Source: a virus. Taken from it: a stretch of 22,131 nucleotides of DNA. Position 1 is the stretch's first letter; every line of letters begins with the position of its first letter. The translations under genes and the position numbers were made by a program. The notes beneath the pieces were generated by a model. It was not told the DNA's origin. It made no database searches and saw nothing but the letters and a program-made list of their open reading frames with translations. Of this stretch, positions 310 through 22,131 are shown piece by piece. The stretch covers positions 1-22,131 of the IMG/VR virus record IMGVR_UViG_3300005338_000036. One strand, given 5' to 3'.

Positions 310-1065
310 CTAGGTCGGGTTTGAAGCTGGTTGAACCAGCGACGGGGTTAAGGAAGCACTGTTTTGAAGTGAAGTCAACCGTTGCCTTTCGCACCGAGCC
401 TTGGCAGCGATACTCATTTTGCGTCGAGCCTCATCAGATTTCGGCTTTCCTCTGAGAGCCGCGCCGATTTTTGCGCTGTGCTCGGCGGTAAATTTCTTCC
501 CCAACTTGGCAGCGCGACACTTGGCAATGTGATCTGCCGATTGCTTTTTCCCTTTGAGATGTTTGCCGCCGGACGCGCTCATCTTGGCGCGAGTTTCTTC
601 TGATTTCTTTCGGCCCTTCAACGCAAGACTCAATGCGGCTTTCGTCTCAGGCGATAAATGCTTGCCTTTATTTGGATGTCCAAACTTTGCGTACTTGTCG
701 CGCAAGTATTGTTTGTAAGCCTCCGACTTTGGCTTACCGCGATTGGCGGCTGAGATTTTAGCACGTATCTCAGGAGTCATCTCAATGGCACCGCCATCGC
801 CGCCATTGGCGATGTTAACGACCTGCCAGCCCAGAACTCGGTACCAATGAATGTAGGTGCGCTCCCACTGTTCCCATTCATCAAATGGAACTTCTTGGAT
901 CACCTCCAACACTGGTTCGAGTCCGAGATCAATAAGCTGTCGCCACCAATTCGCTTTATGAGTCTGCTCGAACTGTATGGAATAGCGATGCTCATTGACG
1001 CGCGTGTAAGGGTTATCCGCCTTACCGATATATACGTGAGTATCGCCCGGTCTCGGGTCTCTCAA
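310..1065 (-). CDS. GIY-YIG homing endonuclease with NUMOD3-type repeats; start codon uncertain
   Basis: The N-terminal part is a GIY-YIG nuclease domain: VYIGKADNPYTRVNEHR supplies the YIG and the conserved Arg, WEQWERTYIHW the likely catalytic Glu, and NIANGG the closing Asn. From about residue 95 onward come repeated NUMOD3-like modules (GKPKSEAYK, GKHLSPETKAAL, GRKKSEETRAKM, GKKFTAEHSAKI, GKPKSDEARRKM), known DNA-binding motifs of phage homing nucleases. The only usable start is a TTG at 1063-1065, but the first half of the motif (CYIYCL, 1063-1080) lies immediately upstream in the same frame, which is open back to 1197 with no ATG, GTG or TTG. So either an unusual start, a +1 frameshift from the preceding gene, or an N-terminally damaged gene. 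It acts on DNA as a mobile-element nuclease and follows the glycosyltransferase at 1124. Confidence 0.85.
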   Translation of the reverse strand: MRDPRPGDTHVYIGKADNPYTRVNEHRYSIQFEQTHKANWWRQLIDLGLEPVLEVIQEVPFDEWEQWERTYIHWYRVLGWQVVNIANGGDGGAIEMTPEIRAKISAANRGKPKSEAYKQYLRDKYAKFGHPNKGKHLSPETKAALSLALKGRKKSEETRAKMSASGGKHLKGKKQSADHIAKCRAAKLGKKFTAEHSAKIGAALRGKPKSDEARRKMSIAAKARCERQRLTSLQNSASLTPSLVQPASNPT

Positions 1066-3703: not shown

Positions 3704-4394
3704 TGAGGCGCTTTATCAAACTGCCATCTTTGCATCGGTGCATCAGGACGGTGCTATCGGGTATCCAACGCTTAACATCTGCGATTGATTTGAAATGCGG
3801 CGGGTTGCCTGTTGTGGCGTGTGGCCGATCATTAATCAAACCCCAGAAATGAAAAATCAGGTCGCTAGCATCGTGACAATCCGCAATCATCTCGTCGCGC
3901 ATCACGTAATCCCATGCTTGATTGGTCGCAACCATCGCTTTTGGGCAACGACTCGCGGTATCAGGCGGGTAAATGGCGACTCCGTTGCAATGCCCCATGT
4001 GCGGAACGATAGCCCCCATGAATGCTTTGCCGCACTGCGCGTAAGCTACGTCAAGTTGTTTCAACCAATCAGATTTCAGAGGTATTGCGTCGGCTTCAAG
4101 CCATAACCACGACGACGCACCAGCCAACATGCGCCGCGCTGTCGATTGCCATGCGAGATTTGGACCAAGGGGCCACCCTGAATTCGCTGGACATGGATAC
4201 GAAAACTTTTCGACGTGAGCAAATACAACACGGGCGATATTATCAATCGCTTCAACAAACCTGTGTTGCAAAGAGGATGGGAAAACCAAAACAGCGTTGA
4301 AGTCAATCGAGCCATGCAATGCGCCCATCCACTTCAGCGTGTCGAGCATCGAGACGGCGTCTTTGGCGCAAAATGGTAGCGCAACACAAAGCAC
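3651..4394 (-). CDS. Putative glycosyltransferase, 247 aa
   Basis: The start is a GTG (4392-4394) preceded at 7 bases by a strong Shine-Dalgarno GGAGGG (complement of 4402-4407), which is embedded in the last codons of the upstream gene. SSWLWLEADAIPLKSDWL (about residues 93-110) supplies the acidic DxD-like centre. Similar phrases occur in phage-encoded transferases, with a short N-terminal Rossmann strand (LCVALPFCAKD). VPHMGHCNGVAIYPP would be near the acceptor site. It opens the run of five glycan-modifying genes. The family assignment is from motif pattern only. Confidence 0.65.
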   Translation of the reverse strand: MLCVALPFCAKDAVSMLDTLKWMGALHGSIDFNAVLVFPSSLQHRFVEAIDNIARVVFAHVEKFSYPCPANSGWPLGPNLAWQSTARRMLAGASSWLWLEADAIPLKSDWLKQLDVAYAQCGKAFMGAIVPHMGHCNGVAIYPPDTASRCPKAMVATNQAWDYVMRDEMIADCHDASDLIFHFWGLINDRPHATTGNPPHFKSIADVKRWIPDSTVLMHRCKDGSLIKRLNESLNLDRKLDARPTVA

Positions 4395-4397
4395 GCG

Positions 4398-4679
4398 CTA
4401 ACCCTCCATCGGGTTTGAAACGATACTCCAGTGATAGCGTTTGGACTCTTCTATGACAGATTTCCACTCGCGATCAACTTCTTCTTTAGACATGCGTTCC
4501 ACTTCGTTTATAGCGCGAGTTGCGGCTTTTAACGCACGCCATTTAGCCAAATTTTGATGCGCGTCGCTCATGCCAAAGTCGAAAGTTTCCAGTTCGATGA
4601 CGAGTTTGTCAGTATCGGCGCGAACGGAATTTCGTGAATTGCCCCAGCCAATTCCTTCTAACTTAATTCCTTCTGGCAT
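4398..4679 (-). CDS. Hypothetical protein, 93 aa
   Basis: I prefer the ATG at 4677-4679 over a TTG two codons upstream because GGAGGG (complement of 4686-4691) sits 6 bases before it. The protein starts MPEGIKLEGIGWGNSRN and continues as charged, probably helical sequence (KAATRAINEVERMSKEEVDREW). No known family is recognised. It sits between the scaffold-like gene and the first glycosyltransferase. Its last residues, PMEG, are the same as those of the upstream gene and come from a repeated 13-base sequence carrying the Shine-Dalgarno. Confidence 0.7.
   Translation of the reverse strand: MPEGIKLEGIGWGNSRNSVRADTDKLVIELETFDFGMSDAHQNLAKWRALKAATRAINEVERMSKEEVDREWKSVIEESKRYHWSIVSNPMEG
4400..4412 (-). 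promoter_or_regulatory. Shine-Dalgarno embedded in a repeated gene-end sequence (copy 2)
   Basis: The minus strand reads CCGATGGAGGGTT, encoding the terminal PMEG of the 93-aa protein and providing GGAGGG 7 bases before the GTG of the glycosyltransferase. An identical 13-mer lies at 4684-4696. Confidence 0.6.
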
Positions 4680-14282: not shown

Positions 14283-17240
14283 TCAGAACAACTCAACATC
14301 AATCGTGGTCGCAATCGCCGTGAACGAGAGCGGCGTGACATTGAGCGTGATGACACCGTTGGTGACGAGGCGGAAGTGCAATCCGGCATTTGTGTTGCCA
14401 TCAGTGACAATGGCGAAGATGCCGCGCAACATCTCGGCGCTCGTATCCAAATCGGTCGAGCGCGTGAGCACCCACGGCGTCCCGCCAGAACCAAGCGACG
14501 TGACGGTATTGCCTGTAATAAAAACGCGACCGTCTTTCCGCGCCACCCATGTCGAGTTTTCTGTCTTGGGGCACCACAGCACGCCCGTATAAAGATCGCG
14601 GTGCTTGGACGGAACCGTCCTGCTCACCTTGTTCAAATAGAGTGTGTGTTGGCCGGCCACCGTACCTCCCAAAGTGCTTGGGATGCCCGCTAAAACACAT
14701 GCGAACTGAATTGGATGCAATCTCGCTATGTCTTTTTGGCCCAAACTTCGCTGTCCTGATTTAGAAATGTGCCCGTCAGCTGACAACGCCGTGTCAATAA
14801 ACAAATGCAATTGGGCTTTCGTTAAAGCCCGCAAGAAGTCAATGCGCACAATTCGGTTCGGCGCTAAGAAGGTCAGCCGTGATCCAGCAGCCGCGTTAAG
14901 GTCAAACTCTATTAGACCTTTTCGCGTAGATGTTTCACGCCATTTCGGGACATCGGTCTTCCACCCGCCTTTGGCACGCGGAGGTGACGCATCGCCAAAC
15001 AAACCTCGCAGGCAACTCCTAATGCGACCCACCAAATCAGGATTTACGCGAGAGGATTGCGAAATGCGCACGCAATTAGAGTGAGTACCAGAATTGTTCT
15101 TCCTGACATGCCCCTCCGTAAAGAACCATGCCACCAGCTCTACAAGGTCATCAGTGTACTTCGCCTTGAAGGGCAATTCTCCACACGGCGCGGCTTTCAA
15201 CAATGCTGTGTTTTTCGTCAATTGAGACGACAGTGTAATGCGTTGTTTGCCGCTGTTTATATTTTCCGTTGGCCACCGATGATTCAGTGATGAGATGGAA
15301 AAGTGCCCTTTGTTACGCATCACCAGGACGGGTTCATTGACAACATTAAACTCGTGAATGGACTGCACGGGCTGCCATTCTGTTACCCCTTTCGCTTGGT
15401 TGTAAGTAAGCACCAATTCACCCGTCGCCAAATCGCGTCTATGCTTCCACCCTTCGTAAGTGAGAATCTCGGTGTTGCCATCCAAGCAGTAGCTGCCATT
15501 GTTCTGTCCAAGAGCCTCGTTCTTGACCAGCACACGGTCGGCAACCGAAATCGCGATGCCGTCAATGGCGGGCAGAGCACCGTTGACGTTAGCCGTGAGC
15601 ACGTTCAGGACGCGCGTGTTTGCGGGCAGCGCAGCGGTTGTAGCAACGCGCCACGCGGTTTTCTTGCCGAACATCGTCCAGCCCACGACATCGGATGAGA
15701 AAACGAAAGTGCCCTGCGGTGCATATCCAGCACCGCCGAGGCCCACCCACGACACGACATTGCCTTGGATGGGATGCTGATAGGTAAAGGCAAGAATCCA
15801 CGCGCATCCAGTCGGCGTGTCTTGGCCAGCGGTATCGTGGTAAATCTTGGTGGCAGCAGGTGCGTCCATCAACGTCGAGTTGAGTTGCGGCACACCACCG
15901 CTGATGTCGATGAGGTAAGCGTAATTGACGAAATTTGGCTGCGGATCAAAAACCGTGAATGTGCCGTTCCACACCGGAGCACCACCGCCTGCGGTGCAAG
16001 CATTGAATGGCGTCAGGCTTGGCAGGAGCGACGCCAAGTTGACGATACGAAGCTGTAGCGTCTGATAGTTGATAGCGGGCTTTTTGACGCGGGTAAGTCG
16101 GAACGTGGGCAAAGATGAACCCACCGCATTCAGCGTCCAACCGCTATCGTGAACATCCACGTCGATGTTTCCGAGAGCGTGCTGAAAATGAAGTGTCTCG
16201 CGCCCTTGAGGGCCGGCGAAAAGTGCAGCGTCCGGGCAACACACAAGAGTTGTGGTGTCGAAGTTTGCCTCGGCATCGGCGGCATTGGATTCCGCGCAGA
16301 AAGAATATGGCAACTTGTTTCGGAACGGCGTGCCGAAAGAGTTGTAAACATATTGCGCCTCACCAGCCACAGGTCCAACGGTAGTGGGCGGATTAACAAA
16401 CCAATTCGGAGGCAACCCCGTGGATGTTTGCACAGAACCGCCAACATACCCGATCTTGTACTCGCCAAGCGGAACGGATGCCCATTGGCCGGTGTCAGTC
16501 ACTTCCATCGTGTTGATGGCCACGTCAGGCGAGATGACGGTGCTGTCGGTGACGCCAAGGTCGCACGGCACATCGCTGGAAACGGTGAGTCGGAACACGC
16601 GCTTGCAGATCAGCCGCGTCCGCGTGGCGGGATTGATTGCGCCCGTGGCTTGCGCGACGAACGTGAACAGGCCCGACACCATTGGGATACCGGAAATGAC
16701 GCCATCAGCGGATAGGCTCAAGCCTCCCGGCAACGCGCCGCCAACAAGCGTCCACACGACGGGTGCGAGTGCGCCGGACTGTTCCAGCATCGCCAAGTAG
16801 TCGGTGCCGGAGAAGGCTTCGGGCAACGTGCCCGGCGTCGAGATTGTGCAGTTCTGATTCTGGCGGGCGTTCTGCGCATTGTAAGCCTGCGCTTCACAGA
16901 GCGCCAAGTGTTCGGCAGCGGCGTCGGCGATTTCTTGCGCTGCGGTGTTAAATTGCGCTTGCGTGAAGTTCGCGGGAAGATACCTCGTTAAAATTACACC
17001 ATCACAACAAGTAAATCGCAATGGATTTCCGCCTGTCGGCGGTGTGTAAGGAATCGCGCCATCGGGAATGATTATTGGGTGTGGATAGGCCCCAGGTGAA
17101 CACGAGAATCCTTGTGGACAGTTTAAGATGAAACCCGTCTGCGCCGACAAAAATGTCAAACCCTGAGTGTAGAATGGAGGCGCTGGAACTGGACAGCATT
17201 CCACTGGCGGTTCACAAATCACTGACACTGGCAAGCTCAC
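14283..17240 (-). CDS. Large Ig-like/fibre virion protein interrupted by an intein, 985 aa precursor
   Basis: The start is GTG at 17238-17240, with TCCTCCT on the plus strand at 17247-17253 giving AGGAGG 7 bases upstream and overlapping the previous stop (GTGA). The TTG 24 bases further up is less likely. The N-terminus is Cys/Pro-rich (VICEPPVECCPVPAPPF). Near residues 130-205 lies a putative Ig (He_PIG-like) unit ending LPGGLSLSADGVISGIP with SGLFTFVAQATG. The C-terminal extein carries ADRVLVKNEALGQNNGSY joined after splicing to TVTSLGSGG and STDLDTSAEMLRG, a repeat unit known from phage tail fibres (RVLVK-x-NG-Y-W-R-x-TD-D). The intein splits that unit. Removal leaves a 658-aa protein, probably a tail fibre or neck component. 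Confidence 0.8.
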   Translation of the reverse strand: MSLPVSVICEPPVECCPVPAPPFYTQGLTFLSAQTGFILNCPQGFSCSPGAYPHPIIIPDGAIPYTPPTGGNPLRFTCCDGVILTRYLPANFTQAQFNTAAQEIADAAAEHLALCEAQAYNAQNARQNQNCTISTPGTLPEAFSGTDYLAMLEQSGALAPVVWTLVGGALPGGLSLSADGVISGIPMVSGLFTFVAQATGAINPATRTRLICKRVFRLTVSSDVPCDLGVTDSTVISPDVAINTMEVTDTGQWASVPLGEYKIGYVGGSVQTSTGLPPNWFVNPPTTVGPVAGEAQYVYNSFGTPFRNKLPYSFCAESNAADAEANFDTTTLVCCPDAALFAGPQGRETLHFQHALGNIDVDVHDSGWTLNAVGSSLPTFRLTRVKKPAINYQTLQLRIVNLASLLPSLTPFNACTAGGGAPVWNGTFTVFDPQPNFVNYAYLIDISGGVPQLNSTLMDAPAATKIYHDTAGQDTPTGCAWILAFTYQHPIQGNVVSWVGLGGAGYAPQGTFVFSSDVVGWTMFGKKTAWRVATTAALPANTRVLNVLTANVNGALPAIDGIAISVADRVLVKNEALGQNNGSYCLDGNTEILTYEGWKHRRDLATGELVLTYNQAKGVTEWQPVQSIHEFNVVNEPVLVMRNKGHFSISSLNHRWPTENINSGKQRITLSSQLTKNTALLKAAPCGELPFKAKYTDDLVELVAWFFTEGHVRKNNSGTHSNCVRISQSSRVNPDLVGRIRSCLRGLFGDASPPRAKGGWKTDVPKWRETSTRKGLIEFDLNAAAGSRLTFLAPNRIVRIDFLRALTKAQLHLFIDTALSADGHISKSGQRSLGQKDIARLHPIQFACVLAGIPSTLGGTVAGQHTLYLNKVSRTVPSKHRDLYTGVLWCPKTENSTWVARKDGRVFITGNTVTSLGSGGTPWVLTRSTDLDTSAEMLRGIFAIVTDGNTNAGLHFRLVTNGVITLNVTPLSFTAIATTIDVELF
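14508..15488 (-). mobile_element. LAGLIDADG-type intein (327 aa) in the fibre protein
   Basis: Intein Cys1 is the TGC at 15486-15488 (CLDGNTEILTYEGW, block A), block B reads GHFSISSLNHRW, and the end is RVFITGN with Asn at 14508-14510 followed by a +1 Thr. The penultimate residue is Gly rather than the usual His, a tolerated variant. Two LAGLIDADG-like motifs are visible: LVELVAWFFTEGHV and LFIDTALSADGHI, both keeping an acidic residue, so the nuclease is probably active. The frame is continuous with both exteins. It excises itself from the protein, and the nuclease spreads the coding DNA to intein-less alleles. Confidence 0.9.
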
Positions 17241-19246
17241 GACACATCCTCCTGCAAAGTGCAAAGTGGCTTCGCGAATTTCGGTTCCGGTACAATACTG
17301 GACATAAACCTCGAACCGAAATATTTCATATGCCCCTGAATCACAAACCGGAATTGAATGCGTTTTCCATCCGTCAGCGGTCGGTCGTTGATTTCATCGC
17401 AACTACCTTCAGGTTTTCCGAAGCCTATGGGGTCTCGAATCTGCGGCGGCACATTGTTGATTCTGCTGCATCCGGTGAGCGGATCAATTCCACATGATGC
17501 GAGTGCGGCACAGAGCGAGAACCGCGTCCATAAATTCCAACACGGATATTCGTCTGCTCGCCAATACACTGTCACGTCCACACGCCCTTTCACGTCGTAA
17601 AAGTAGCCTTCGCCATCTTCGAGCCGGTTCAATCCTAACCGATTTTGGTCAGCGTTACGGAAATCCAACGCAGCAGTCTCAATCGACCAAATGATCGGCG
17701 TCTGGTCATTGTCCTCGATGACATCGGTTTCGCTATTAAGAATTTCCCAAAACTCAATCTCCTGCGCGGCGTTCAGGACGAACGCGAAGCACCGCTCCAC
17801 GTCGTTGAATCGGCCTTTGACGAATTGCAGAACGCTGATGCCAGTCCCCACGCTCTCCCACACTGTCGGCGCTTTGCCTCGAAGCGAGCTGATCAGATCA
17901 AAGTTGAGTGCGACCCAGCCGCGATGCAAGACACCGTGTTGGGTGAACACAGGAGATACAGTCATCAACAAACGATTGTCGAACACAACTGCGCTGGAAT
18001 ATTGGAGCAAAGCTGTATCGTCCTTTTTGAGCACATCGGAGACTTCGCGGCTCATGGGCACGTTGCCCCACGTTGCGAAATCTCGCCGACCAAGGATGAG
18101 CGACCAAATGCCGACCGTGCCGCGATACCACAAATCACCTTTAGCAACGACAGTGCTATATTGTGACAAACCTCCGCTCTCGACCTGCGATACGGTCACG
18201 ATTGGATTTGTGACAGTCGCCCAGTCAGCGGTCGTGGTCGGCGCATTGCACGAGAAAACGATTTCAGGAGTGAGAATTTGCACCGGCCCTTGGCCAAGTG
18301 AAGCGTCGAGCGTCGGCACGCCGCGAATGGCGGTGATTTCGCCAACACTGCCGGGAACCCGGAACCGCTTGTTGCTCGCCAGATAAAGATTTTCGCTGAT
18401 ATGCAGGACGGCATCTCGAAATTCCTCAGCAAGCGTACCTGAAGCACCTCCAACCGCGTCGCCAGCAAGGAATGTGACGCCATCTGGTCCGGCCTGCCAC
18501 ACACGTCCAAGCCAATACGTGCCCATGCGTGCGATTGGCAATTCAGGATTCGCACCGACGAGCACCGAACGCCGGGACGTGGCACCGTCAAAAAAGATCG
18601 GCACCGATTGGCCGTCGTTAATAATCATCCATTTCTCAGCTTGCCAGAGCCACGCTTGCGTGCGCGATGCCGGGTTCACGTCCCAGAACGTCAGCACTGC
18701 ACCAGCGGCGACGAGCGGGCCGGGATCGTCGATGTTTTCGACAGTCAGGACAGTTGGCGAGTCCACGGAGACAATAATGTAGTTGTGATTGCCTACGCGA
18801 ATCTCGAAGTTTGCGCCGAGGTTTACGGTCGAGAGCACCGTGATCGTCACCGTCGCGCCGATGGCTGGCACCGCGAATCCCACGTCAACGATGGTGTTGT
18901 GTGCGATGGTGATTTCGCGCACCGAAGCTGTCCTCGCTCCTGGCGTGAACTGGAACAGCCGACCGCCGATGGATGCGATGATTGAACCGATGCCGGAATC
19001 ACTTCGATAGTACGCGCTGCCTTGGAATCGACCGTCCTGTTGACGCGAAGCCAACACACCGTCGCCGCCATAATCCAGTGTGAGCCGGCGATTCGGTGCG
19101 CGAGGCGAAGCATATCCTCCTCGTACGCTCGTGTTGGTGAGGTAAGCCGCCTGAGTGCGCTGGAGCTGCGATGGGAGAACGCCGCTGTTCATCCCGTCGA
19201 TCAGCGGGCCGATGCTATCGTAGAGGTAGTGGGGCTTATCAGCCAT
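17237..19246 (-). CDS. Large beta-rich putative virion protein, 669 aa
   Basis: The ATG start (19244-19246) lies within the last 8 bases of the upstream gene. The N-terminus YLYDSIGPLIDGMNSGVLPS and NTSVRGGYASPRAPNRRL follow a layout I associate with tail-nozzle or stabilisation proteins (a Gly-rich start, an Asn, then an Arg-rich loop). The rest alternates short beta strands with aromatic/Asp turns (TQAWLWQAEKWMIINDGQSV, YWLGRVWQAGPDGVTF), suggesting a beta-propeller. The C-terminal ~120 residues are Cys-richer (PCWNLWTRFSLCAALASC). No family is firmly recognised; the nozzle idea is inference from size and position. Confidence 0.65.
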   Translation of the reverse strand: MADKPHYLYDSIGPLIDGMNSGVLPSQLQRTQAAYLTNTSVRGGYASPRAPNRRLTLDYGGDGVLASRQQDGRFQGSAYYRSDSGIGSIIASIGGRLFQFTPGARTASVREITIAHNTIVDVGFAVPAIGATVTITVLSTVNLGANFEIRVGNHNYIIVSVDSPTVLTVENIDDPGPLVAAGAVLTFWDVNPASRTQAWLWQAEKWMIINDGQSVPIFFDGATSRRSVLVGANPELPIARMGTYWLGRVWQAGPDGVTFLAGDAVGGASGTLAEEFRDAVLHISENLYLASNKRFRVPGSVGEITAIRGVPTLDASLGQGPVQILTPEIVFSCNAPTTTADWATVTNPIVTVSQVESGGLSQYSTVVAKGDLWYRGTVGIWSLILGRRDFATWGNVPMSREVSDVLKKDDTALLQYSSAVVFDNRLLMTVSPVFTQHGVLHRGWVALNFDLISSLRGKAPTVWESVGTGISVLQFVKGRFNDVERCFAFVLNAAQEIEFWEILNSETDVIEDNDQTPIIWSIETAALDFRNADQNRLGLNRLEDGEGYFYDVKGRVDVTVYWRADEYPCWNLWTRFSLCAALASCGIDPLTGCSRINNVPPQIRDPIGFGKPEGSCDEINDRPLTDGKRIQFRFVIQGHMKYFGSRFMSSIVPEPKFAKPLCTLQEDVS

Positions 19247-20314: not shown

Positions 20315-20377
20315 AGCCTTTCTCAATCCCGCTGTTCGGGTGTTGTCTCAGATTGCGCCTTCGCGTAGCGTCCGTCA

Positions 20378-22131
20378 ATGGCTTCCGCTGCATTTGAGAA
20401 ATACGACCTCGACTGGCCCGCTGGCACGACGGCGCTTGAAATCGAGACGTACATGATCCGGCAGGGAAAGAATCTGTTCACGCATTTCCGCGCCTTGCAC
20501 TCGTTGCTTTGGGAAGACGAGCACAACAAGTGGAGCGACCTCGCGTTGAAAGAATTCACGGACTGCATGGAGTTCCGAAAGCGCGGCATGGTCGGGCTGC
20601 TCGGCCCCGGCAGCAGCGGCAAGACGTATTATGCGAGCAAGTTCGTGTTGAGCCACTATTACGTTTATCCACAGGAAACAACAATCTTACTAACCACCAC
20701 GACGGTTCAGAAATTGGACTTGGGAATCTTCGGAGAGGTGAAAAAATTGCATAAGCAGGCGAAAGAACGATGGGAAGAATTACCGGGGGTCACACTCGAC
20801 TATAAACGTTGCATTATCACGGATCGAGCCGAGGAAGGAGAGCCAAGAGATTTCAGGAACGGAATTATTGGCATAGCCTGTATGCGCGGGGAACAATGGG
20901 TCGGCATCGGTTGCTTTCCCGGTGAACAGCTTGTTGATACCCCAACCGGGCAAATCCCCATTGAAACGATAAAGGAAGGTGATTCAGTAATTTCCGCCTT
21001 CGGGTCGGCGAGGGTAAAGGCAACCTCAACGCGAACGGCTGACACGCTGATACGAGTCACGCTCGAAGATAGCAGAAAATTCGATTGCACGCCTGAGCAT
21101 CCAATTTTAACTTCAACGGGATGGGTAAAAGCTATTGACCTAAACAGCCAAATCCGAGTAATATCGCCACATGAGACCATGCGAATCATGCGGGAAGCTG
21201 ATCGCCAGGAAAGGGCGACTCGCGTTTTGCAGTCAGGCGTGTTTGGACAAGCAGTGGACACGGATTTGTCCTATGTGCAAAACCGAGTTCGTTTTGAAAG
21301 ATCACAGGAGCGAACATTGCTCGAAATCCTGTGCGATGAAATCGAGGATGTCAGACCCGGATTATGCAAAGCACATTGCGAAACTTACGCATACGGAGGA
21401 GGCTCGCCTAAAAAGTCAGCTAACCCATCTGGCCAACTTGGAGAATCGGAAGCGCATGGCGATATGGTCGAAATCGAGAGCAGGCGGCATACAGTCAGCT
21501 TTGGTAAAGAAAAGCTGGGAAGCACGCCGCAAGAACGGCGAGAAGGCTTTCAAGGGACACGGCAACGGTTTTCCGCCGAGCCAAGCCGAGCGGATTATGA
21601 TGGCTTTATTTCCAGAAGCGCAATTCGAGCCGATAATCCTGAGCCATCGAGGATTGAAAAGCACGGCACTCAAAACCGGCTATCAACATTACGTCAAACC
21701 GGACTTCGGCTGGTTGGACATCAAGTTGGCGGTGGAAGTGGACGGAGAAACGCATTCTCGACCTCGCCAGAAAGTGCGGGACGCTCGCAAGGAAAAGATA
21801 CTCTCGGAACAAGGGTGGTCAGTGTTAAGATTCTCGAACGAACAAGTGATAAACGATACGTCGAAAGTGAAGGCGGCTATCGAGTCCACAATCTTGAGGT
21901 TGAAGGCCACCCGTCCTACTCCATAAACGGCACCGTCGCTCATAATTCTTTCGTCGGAATCAAGAACAAATGGGTGTTCCTCGTCGCCGACGAATGCAGC
22001 CTCATGGACATCTCGTATCTTCGCGCCACGTCGAACCTGGACAAGAACGAGCGGTTTTTCTTCATCCCGATTGCAAATCCTGTGAACGGTGAGCATTCGC
22101 CAATGGGCCAGTCATGCGAGCCTGAGCTTGG
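20378..22131 (+). CDS. terL: Large terminase subunit (TerL) with an intein, partial at right edge
   Basis: The ATG at 20378-20380 is the first start after a TAG at 20366. The Walker A motif is LLGPGSSGKTYYAS (residues about 74-87), and the Walker B motif is VFLVADE, at D538/E539 of the precursor (193/194 after splicing), followed by CSLMDISYLRATSNLDKN, typical of phage packaging ATPases. The intein lies between them (residues 179-523) and splits MRGEQWVGIG from SFVGIKNKW. The frame is open to the end of the window, so the nuclease domain and C-terminus are beyond it. The enzyme translocates DNA into the capsid. It is divergent from the virion genes and shows no clear Shine-Dalgarno. Confidence 0.88.
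   Translation, partial: MASAAFEKYDLDWPAGTTALEIETYMIRQGKNLFTHFRALHSLLWEDEHNKWSDLALKEFTDCMEFRKRGMVGLLGPGSSGKTYYASKFVLSHYYVYPQETTILLTTTTVQKLDLGIFGEVKKLHKQAKERWEELPGVTLDYKRCIITDRAEEGEPRDFRNGIIGIACMRGEQWVGIGCFPGEQLVDTPTGQIPIETIKEGDSVISAFGSARVKATSTRTADTLIRVTLEDSRKFDCTPEHPILTSTGWVKAIDLNSQIRVISPHETMRIMREADRQERATRVLQSGVFGQAVDTDLSYVQNRVRFERSQERTLLEILCDEIEDVRPGLCKAHCETYAYGGGSPKKSANPSGQLGESEAHGDMVEIESRRHTVSFGKEKLGSTPQERREGFQGTRQRFSAEPSRADYDGFISRSAIRADNPEPSRIEKHGTQNRLSTLRQTGLRLVGHQVGGGSGRRNAFSTSPESAGRSQGKDTLGTRVVSVKILERTSDKRYVESEGGYRVHNLEVEGHPSYSINGTVAHNSFVGIKNKWVFLVADECSLMDISYLRATSNLDKNERFFFIPIANPVNGEHSPMGQSCEPEL
21135..21164 (+). promoter_or_regulatory. Candidate promoter for the nested endonuclease
   Basis: TTGACC (21135-21140), 18-base spacer, TAATAT (21159-21164): 5/6 and 4/6 consensus matches. 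A start site about 7 bases downstream would fall at or next to the ATG at 21171, giving a nearly leaderless transcript. It lies inside intein coding sequence, and no Shine-Dalgarno precedes the ATG. Confidence 0.3.
21171..21926 (+). CDS. EDxHD/Vsr-like homing endonuclease with zinc ribbons, nested in the TerL intein in the +1 frame, 251 aa
   Basis: Two Cys4 modules at the N-terminus (CESCGK with FCSQAC; CPMCKTEF with HCSKSC, residues about 4-55) are followed by a basic helical segment (KHIAKLTHTEEARLKSQ, SALVKKSWEARRKNGEKAF). The nuclease core is SQAERIM, then YVKPDFGWLDIKLAVEVDGE, then TH, VRDARKEKILSEQGWSVLRF, with SNEQV: the E, D, ExDG, H and D...R pattern of Vsr/DUF559-type EDxHD nucleases, a known homing family. 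The frame is closed upstream by TAA at 21159-21161, so the ATG is the only canonical start. The stop TAA (21924-21926) lies inside the intein C-terminal splicing block. Expression would need internal initiation or a +1 shift between 21162 and 21171. Confidence 0.85.
   Translation: MRPCESCGKLIARKGRLAFCSQACLDKQWTRICPMCKTEFVLKDHRSEHCSKSCAMKSRMSDPDYAKHIAKLTHTEEARLKSQLTHLANLENRKRMAIWSKSRAGGIQSALVKKSWEARRKNGEKAFKGHGNGFPPSQAERIMMALFPEAQFEPIILSHRGLKSTALKTGYQHYVKPDFGWLDIKLAVEVDGETHSRPRQKVRDARKEKILSEQGWSVLRFSNEQVINDTSKVKAAIESTILRLKATRPTP

Follow-up and report, generated by a model that had tools for sequence, protein, structure and literature searches.

How one stretch of a terminase gene can carry both an uninterrupted intein and a homing endonuclease in a different reading frame is the question raised by a viral DNA of 22,131 nucleotides (IMG/VR record IMGVR_UViG_3300005338_000036, positions 1 to 22,131), hereafter called the window. 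The first-pass annotation, made from the sequence alone, had placed a 251-amino-acid EDxHD nuclease with zinc ribbons in the +1 frame entirely inside a continuous terminase intein. The layout was confirmed, and the nested layout is a large recurrent class and not a single oddity. The locus very probably represents a contiguous, cis-splicing intein whose dual-coding linker DNA encodes a separately initiated nuclease.

Frame reading revealed no stop codon in the terminase frame from the ATG at 20378 to the end of the window at 22131 (584 codons, open at the 3' end); the open reading frame (ORF) reaches 938 codons in L002, a record extending past the window. All features of the locus lie on the plus strand. 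The N-terminal part of the terminase large subunit (N-extein, 20378-20911), which contains the Walker A sequence GPGSSGKT, was aligned with the intein-less homologues L007-L016. The intein follows in the same frame (20912-21946). It starts with Cys1 (20912-20914) and ends with His344 (21941-21943) and Asn345 (21944-21946), and Ser+1 is encoded at 21947-21949. Its N-terminal splicing region (20912-21145; N-block hidden Markov model (HMM) match at L002 3535-3768) includes block B with Thr60 (21089-21091) and His63 (21098-21100), and C1 and H63 are invariant. Thus C1, T60, H63, H344, N345 and Ser+1, the residues of a class 1 intein, are all present. The C-terminal splicing region (21878-21949; C-block HMM match at L002 4501-4572) comprises blocks F/G and Ser+1 and overlaps the last codons of the nuclease. 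The C-extein (21947-22131) is the Walker-B half of the terminase (VFLVADE) and runs past the window.

The nuclease ORF extends from the ATG at 21171 to the TAA at 21924-21926 (251 amino acids), entirely within the intein and in the +1 frame relative to the terminase. Two cysteine sets conserved in the alignment (C4/C7/C20/C24 and C33/C36/C50/C54) define its N-terminal zinc-ribbon region (21171-21332), and C33, C36 and C50 are nearly invariant among 38 homologues. A DUF559/EDxHD-type catalytic domain occupies approximately residues 140-240 (21588-21890), as indicated by PF04480 and by matches to 3R3P and 3HRL in sequence and fold. D178, E189, D191, H195 and D204 are invariant in the 38 homologues, the window included. 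The third frame is closed many times, for example by a TAA codon at 21421.

Curated family models recognized both frames. In the window, the intein frame matched TIGR01445 intein_Nterm at 25.7 bits (cut-off 24.5) and PF14890 Intein_splicing at E = 3.7e-6, which is under the gathering score of that model, and the nuclease frame matched PF04480 DUF559 at 49.5 bits (cut-off 20.6). Among the loci, intein frames were recognized by PF14890 (42 of 43), TIGR01443 (36) and TIGR01445 (31), and nuclease frames by PF04480 (39 of 39). The curated models found no nuclease or other domain in the intein-frame reading of the overlap. AlphaFold modeled the window intein with a predicted local distance difference test score (pLDDT) of approximately 94-98 at residues 1-90 and 301-346 (above 95 for residues 1-90) and mostly 41-52 at residues 147-300 (21350-21811). 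The intein ends are therefore predicted to form a HINT fold joined by a disordered linker; the best Foldseek matches were inteins, and the best of them in the PDB was the gp41-1 intein. The nuclease model had a mean pLDDT of 87, and its best fold match was the catalytic domain of I-Bth0305I (3R3P; Foldseek E = 3.4e-3, TM-score 0.75 by target). A sequence-profile match to 3R3P (E = 1.7e-4) was consistent with this. Sequence and model thus indicate a Vsr/DUF559-type catalytic domain related to that of I-Bth0305I, an EDxHD enzyme that is, however, intron-encoded.

Neither sequencing error nor chance accounts for the two open frames. The window sequence is 100% identical, without indels, in a separate 60.8-kilobase virus record (L001/L002), which excludes an indel confined to one assembly, and the recurrence of the layout in 188 loci likewise rules out an assembly error. 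The improbability of two open frames, which the first-pass annotation had estimated from equal base use, was borne out by shuffling the synonymous codons of the window core while keeping the encoded nuclease unchanged. These shuffles gave a mean of 8.5 intein-frame stops, and only 1 in 20,000 was stop-free.

Relatives were collected by a search with the terminase protein, followed by nuclease-alignment scans, four of viral contigs and one of bacterial and archaeal genomes. The nuclease scans were blind to layout, and the total set comprised 377 loci, from which near-duplicates were removed by catalytic-domain sequence before distinct loci were counted. The terminase search returned, besides the intein-less homologues, three other intein-bearing types (L003/L004, L005/L006 and L018), all with the nested layout of the window. 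In at least 188 distinct loci, a single uninterrupted ORF held both intein blocks (N and C), and a DUF559/EDxHD-like nuclease was read in its +1 frame. Among distinct loci with both intein blocks in one ORF, none had the nuclease in the intein frame or in the +2 frame. Two distinct loci (L254 and L335) had both blocks with stops between them, eight had a single block and were cut by contig ends, and 36 had no intein blocks. Most of these 36 were free-standing DUF559 genes found in genomes, and four lay near a contig end. A plasmid search gave no match.

The host genes of the nested inteins encode terminases, DExH/SNF2 helicases, clamp loaders and a few others. Approximately 160 of the 188 insertions, with helicases and clamp loaders among their hosts, lie directly after the DE of the Walker B motif (DE^C site). 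Terminase insertions occupy more varied sites: L003 and L005 carry theirs at GIA^C, L018 at RKGII^C and the window at VGIG^S. The inteins begin with Cys at the HMM boundary in 186 of the 188 loci, and the +1 residue is Cys in 173 and Ser in 15.

We compared the stops in the intein frame with those expected from synonymous shuffles of the nuclease codons. In the first round, 68 distinct loci had no host-frame stop against 592 expected (including Techage L140, which lacks intein blocks and was discarded afterwards), and 32 non-nested homologues had 178 against 216 expected. In the core between the intein blocks, the 188 loci had no intein-frame stop against 1,986 expected. Because these loci were selected for an open frame, a fair tally adds L254 and L335, which brings the count to 16 stops. 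Free-standing homologues had 205 stops in the corresponding frame against 230 expected. The openness of the intein frame is thus no by-product of the nuclease sequence, and an inherently stop-free nuclease sequence was ruled out.

Substitution rates by codon position between related pairs, which are phylogenetically non-independent, gave a concordant picture. In the N block, intein position 3 changed fastest (0.307 versus 0.122 at position 2). In the core, nuclease position 3 was fastest (0.394) and nuclease position 2 slowest (0.192), and in the C block intein position 3 was again fastest (0.363 versus 0.113 at position 2). A switch from intein to nuclease and back to intein is the pattern expected of two functional, partly overlapping proteins, and staying open seems to be the main constraint on the intein frame within the core.

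The nuclease ATG lies shortly 3' of the N block in most loci (median 23 nucleotides). Many of these starts are preceded by a Shine-Dalgarno-like sequence that doubles as intein coding sequence, and an energy of −6 kcal/mol or lower was found at 40% of nuclease starts versus 10% of control ATGs (p = 8e-11). Programmed +1 ribosomal frameshifting, which would yield a fusion of the intein N-terminal part (IntN) with the nuclease in place of internal initiation, could draw on the constant +1 phase, as the nuclease is always reachable by a single slip. However, the nuclease frame of the window opens only 9 nucleotides before the ATG at 21171 with a stop just upstream, and across loci a Met with an enriched Shine-Dalgarno-like sequence usually stands just after the N block; frameshifting is thus very unlikely.

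In the preferred reading, the contiguous intein with a separately initiated nuclease, translation of the terminase frame would yield IntN, a disordered linker of approximately 150-200 residues and the C-terminal part (IntC). Both ends would form a HINT domain and self-excise via Cys1, His63, Asn345 and Ser+1, restoring the terminase. The same DNA read one base on would give the separately initiated zinc-ribbon and DUF559/EDxHD nuclease, which would cut alleles lacking the intein, and repair of the break would then copy the entire element. The sequence itself establishes the layout, the selection on both frames and the mobility signature; splicing, internal initiation and cleavage we infer.

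Comparison with the phage of L003 located a recombinant patch around the insertion (20352-22131 in the window). The two phages are identical for 3 kilobases upstream, 58-96% identical from about −560 to about +300 nucleotides around the insertion, and identical again beyond about +300 over stretches of several hundred bases. Within the patch they carry different inteins at neighboring sites. The intein-less L007-L010 are 93-100% identical to the window just downstream of the insertion and 65-80% just upstream. In these alignments, the patch and the flank identities are suggestive of the traces expected of homing with co-conversion.

Several points weigh against the preferred reading. The phages are mosaic elsewhere too, for example in their divergence beyond +900 nucleotides, so that the patch suggests homing but does not prove it. 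The N- and C-block HMMs were built from the same loci, though the curated models agree with them. L254 and L335 demonstrate that the open intein frame can be lost. The nuclease start of the window lacks a clear Shine-Dalgarno sequence (−2.5 kcal/mol), so initiation there is a step that we infer. This poor start would also suit a decayed or unexpressed relic whose double openness is a neutral leftover, and homing endonucleases often decay once fixed. But slow change at nuclease codon position 2 and fast change at position 3 in the core, together with the catalytic-domain residues kept unchanged in the window and its homologues, make a relic even less probable than frameshifting.

Dassa et al. 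reportedly described, in 2009, fractured phage genes with split inteins and EDxHD endonucleases. As in those phage genes, an EDxHD/Vsr-type nuclease is found here between the two intein parts, N and C; unlike in those genes, which consist of separate ORFs, the intein frame is unbroken and overlaps the nuclease. A fractured gene in the window, with terminase and intein halves made separately, trans-splicing and a free-standing nuclease between them, would accord with the structural match to gp41-1, an intein of fractured genes. It would also accord with L335, which belongs to the same nuclease family and is a true fractured gene with fifteen intein-frame stops and a separate IntC ORF; fractured and nested layouts thus both occur within one nuclease family. 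The absence of any stop in the window and in the 188 relatives argues against this explanation, as do the inspected gp41-1 loci, where the intein frame is full of stops and a GIY-YIG-like ORF takes the place of the nuclease, and we consider it scarcely probable. L254 has a single TAG (2949-2951) in an otherwise open clamp-loader/intein frame, which may be an incipient fractured gene, a recoded stop or an error. Fractured gp41-1 loci were also considered as carriers of the same nuclease and rejected, as the catalytic HMM had no match in 50 loci (L382-L431); those inspected have the GIY-YIG-like ORF between the intein halves.

The nearest element described so far is the ShiLan domain. It and the Pacc40 gp60 insertion carry a zinc-finger HNH nuclease out of frame; the ShiLan element sits in a gene for a dispensable methylase, and no splicing domain of an intein or intron was detected (Arsenault, Gosselin, Gogarten 2025; PMC11855218). 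The nested elements resemble ShiLan in having an out-of-frame zinc-finger nuclease in an open insertion of a phage gene and a disjunct, homing-like distribution; they differ in pairing a true intein with a nuclease of DUF559/EDxHD-like type, and they occupy many ATPase genes. An unspliced insertion tolerated by the host protein has a published precedent in this open and apparently unspliced element (PMC11855218) but is barely conceivable here, given the conserved splicing residues, the predicted HINT fold and sites mostly in the Walker B motif of ATPases.

With regard to evolution, the uniform +1 phase in all 188 loci and the homology of their inteins and nucleases suggest a single origin, followed by spread to approximately 30 insertion contexts. 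In the catalytic-domain tree, L335 belongs to a clade of four (support 0.93) placed among nested members, and the neighbor of L254 is a nested locus (support 0.93), so that fractured forms look derived from nested ones, a direction that is weakly resolved. The suggestion in the first-pass annotation of a separate evolutionary route to a nuclease-bearing intein is plausible, its direction being likewise weakly resolved. Close free-standing relatives of the nuclease lie directly upstream of, and overlap, an intein-less terminase gene in L025 (2992-3672) and L029 (1649-2347), and free-standing family members lie upstream of intein-less helicase genes in L349 and L372. These could be a source or a product of the nested form. 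A wider proposal, which we put forward tentatively and with some doubt, is that one lineage of phage inteins has out-of-frame nested nucleases as a stable, dominant architecture, and that these are the missing link from contiguous to natural split inteins. With the two reading frames once separated, stops in the linker could then yield a fractured gene, incipient in L254 and full in L335.

Conventional LAGLIDADG and HNH inteins likewise have splicing blocks flanking the nuclease in its usual position between blocks B and F, but their endonuclease is in frame, whereas here it lies outside the intein polypeptide. We found no published account of a contiguous intein with its nuclease out of frame in a search that did not extend to subscription papers and most preprints, and prior publication of the layout cannot be excluded. 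The layout adds a mobile-intein architecture in which one stretch of essential-gene DNA is overprinted with two proteins of separate function, and the sole demand on the linker of the splicing protein is the absence of stops. Although widespread, this architecture was missed by one-frame annotation. It is a natural source of contiguous inteins in which the disordered linker is very long, hints at a way for split inteins to arise, and provides overlapping-gene research with an unusually clear, replicated case.

Forty GenBank phage records matched at E ≤ 1e-8 (37 Vibrio, 2 Corynebacterium phi673 and 1 Pseudomonas MR14). All seven inspected cultured-phage loci were nested; their genes are labelled helicase, P-loop NTPase or hypothetical protein, and none of the seven has a separate nuclease annotation. 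The presence of the layout in cultured phages makes splicing and homing directly testable. Mycobacterium phage Techage (L140) was rejected as a nested case, as it has a free-standing nuclease ORF and no intein blocks; its shifted frame is open nonetheless, at 65% GC. This zinc-ribbon Vsr-like ORF (4001-4666, plus strand) and annotated gene 59 are on opposite strands; two genes labelled DNA methylase flank the ORF, which is probably a missed gene.

Elsewhere in the window, an apparent second, conventional intein (14508-15488, minus strand) lies in an ORF for a structural-protein-like product of 993 amino acids (14283-17264). It has a Hint-like N block at Cys593, a weak LAGLIDADG_3 match at 712-753 and GN^T near residue 919. 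A free-standing GIY-YIG/NUMOD3 homing endonuclease is encoded at 310-1065 (minus strand), and with the two inteins this gives three endonuclease types in one phage.
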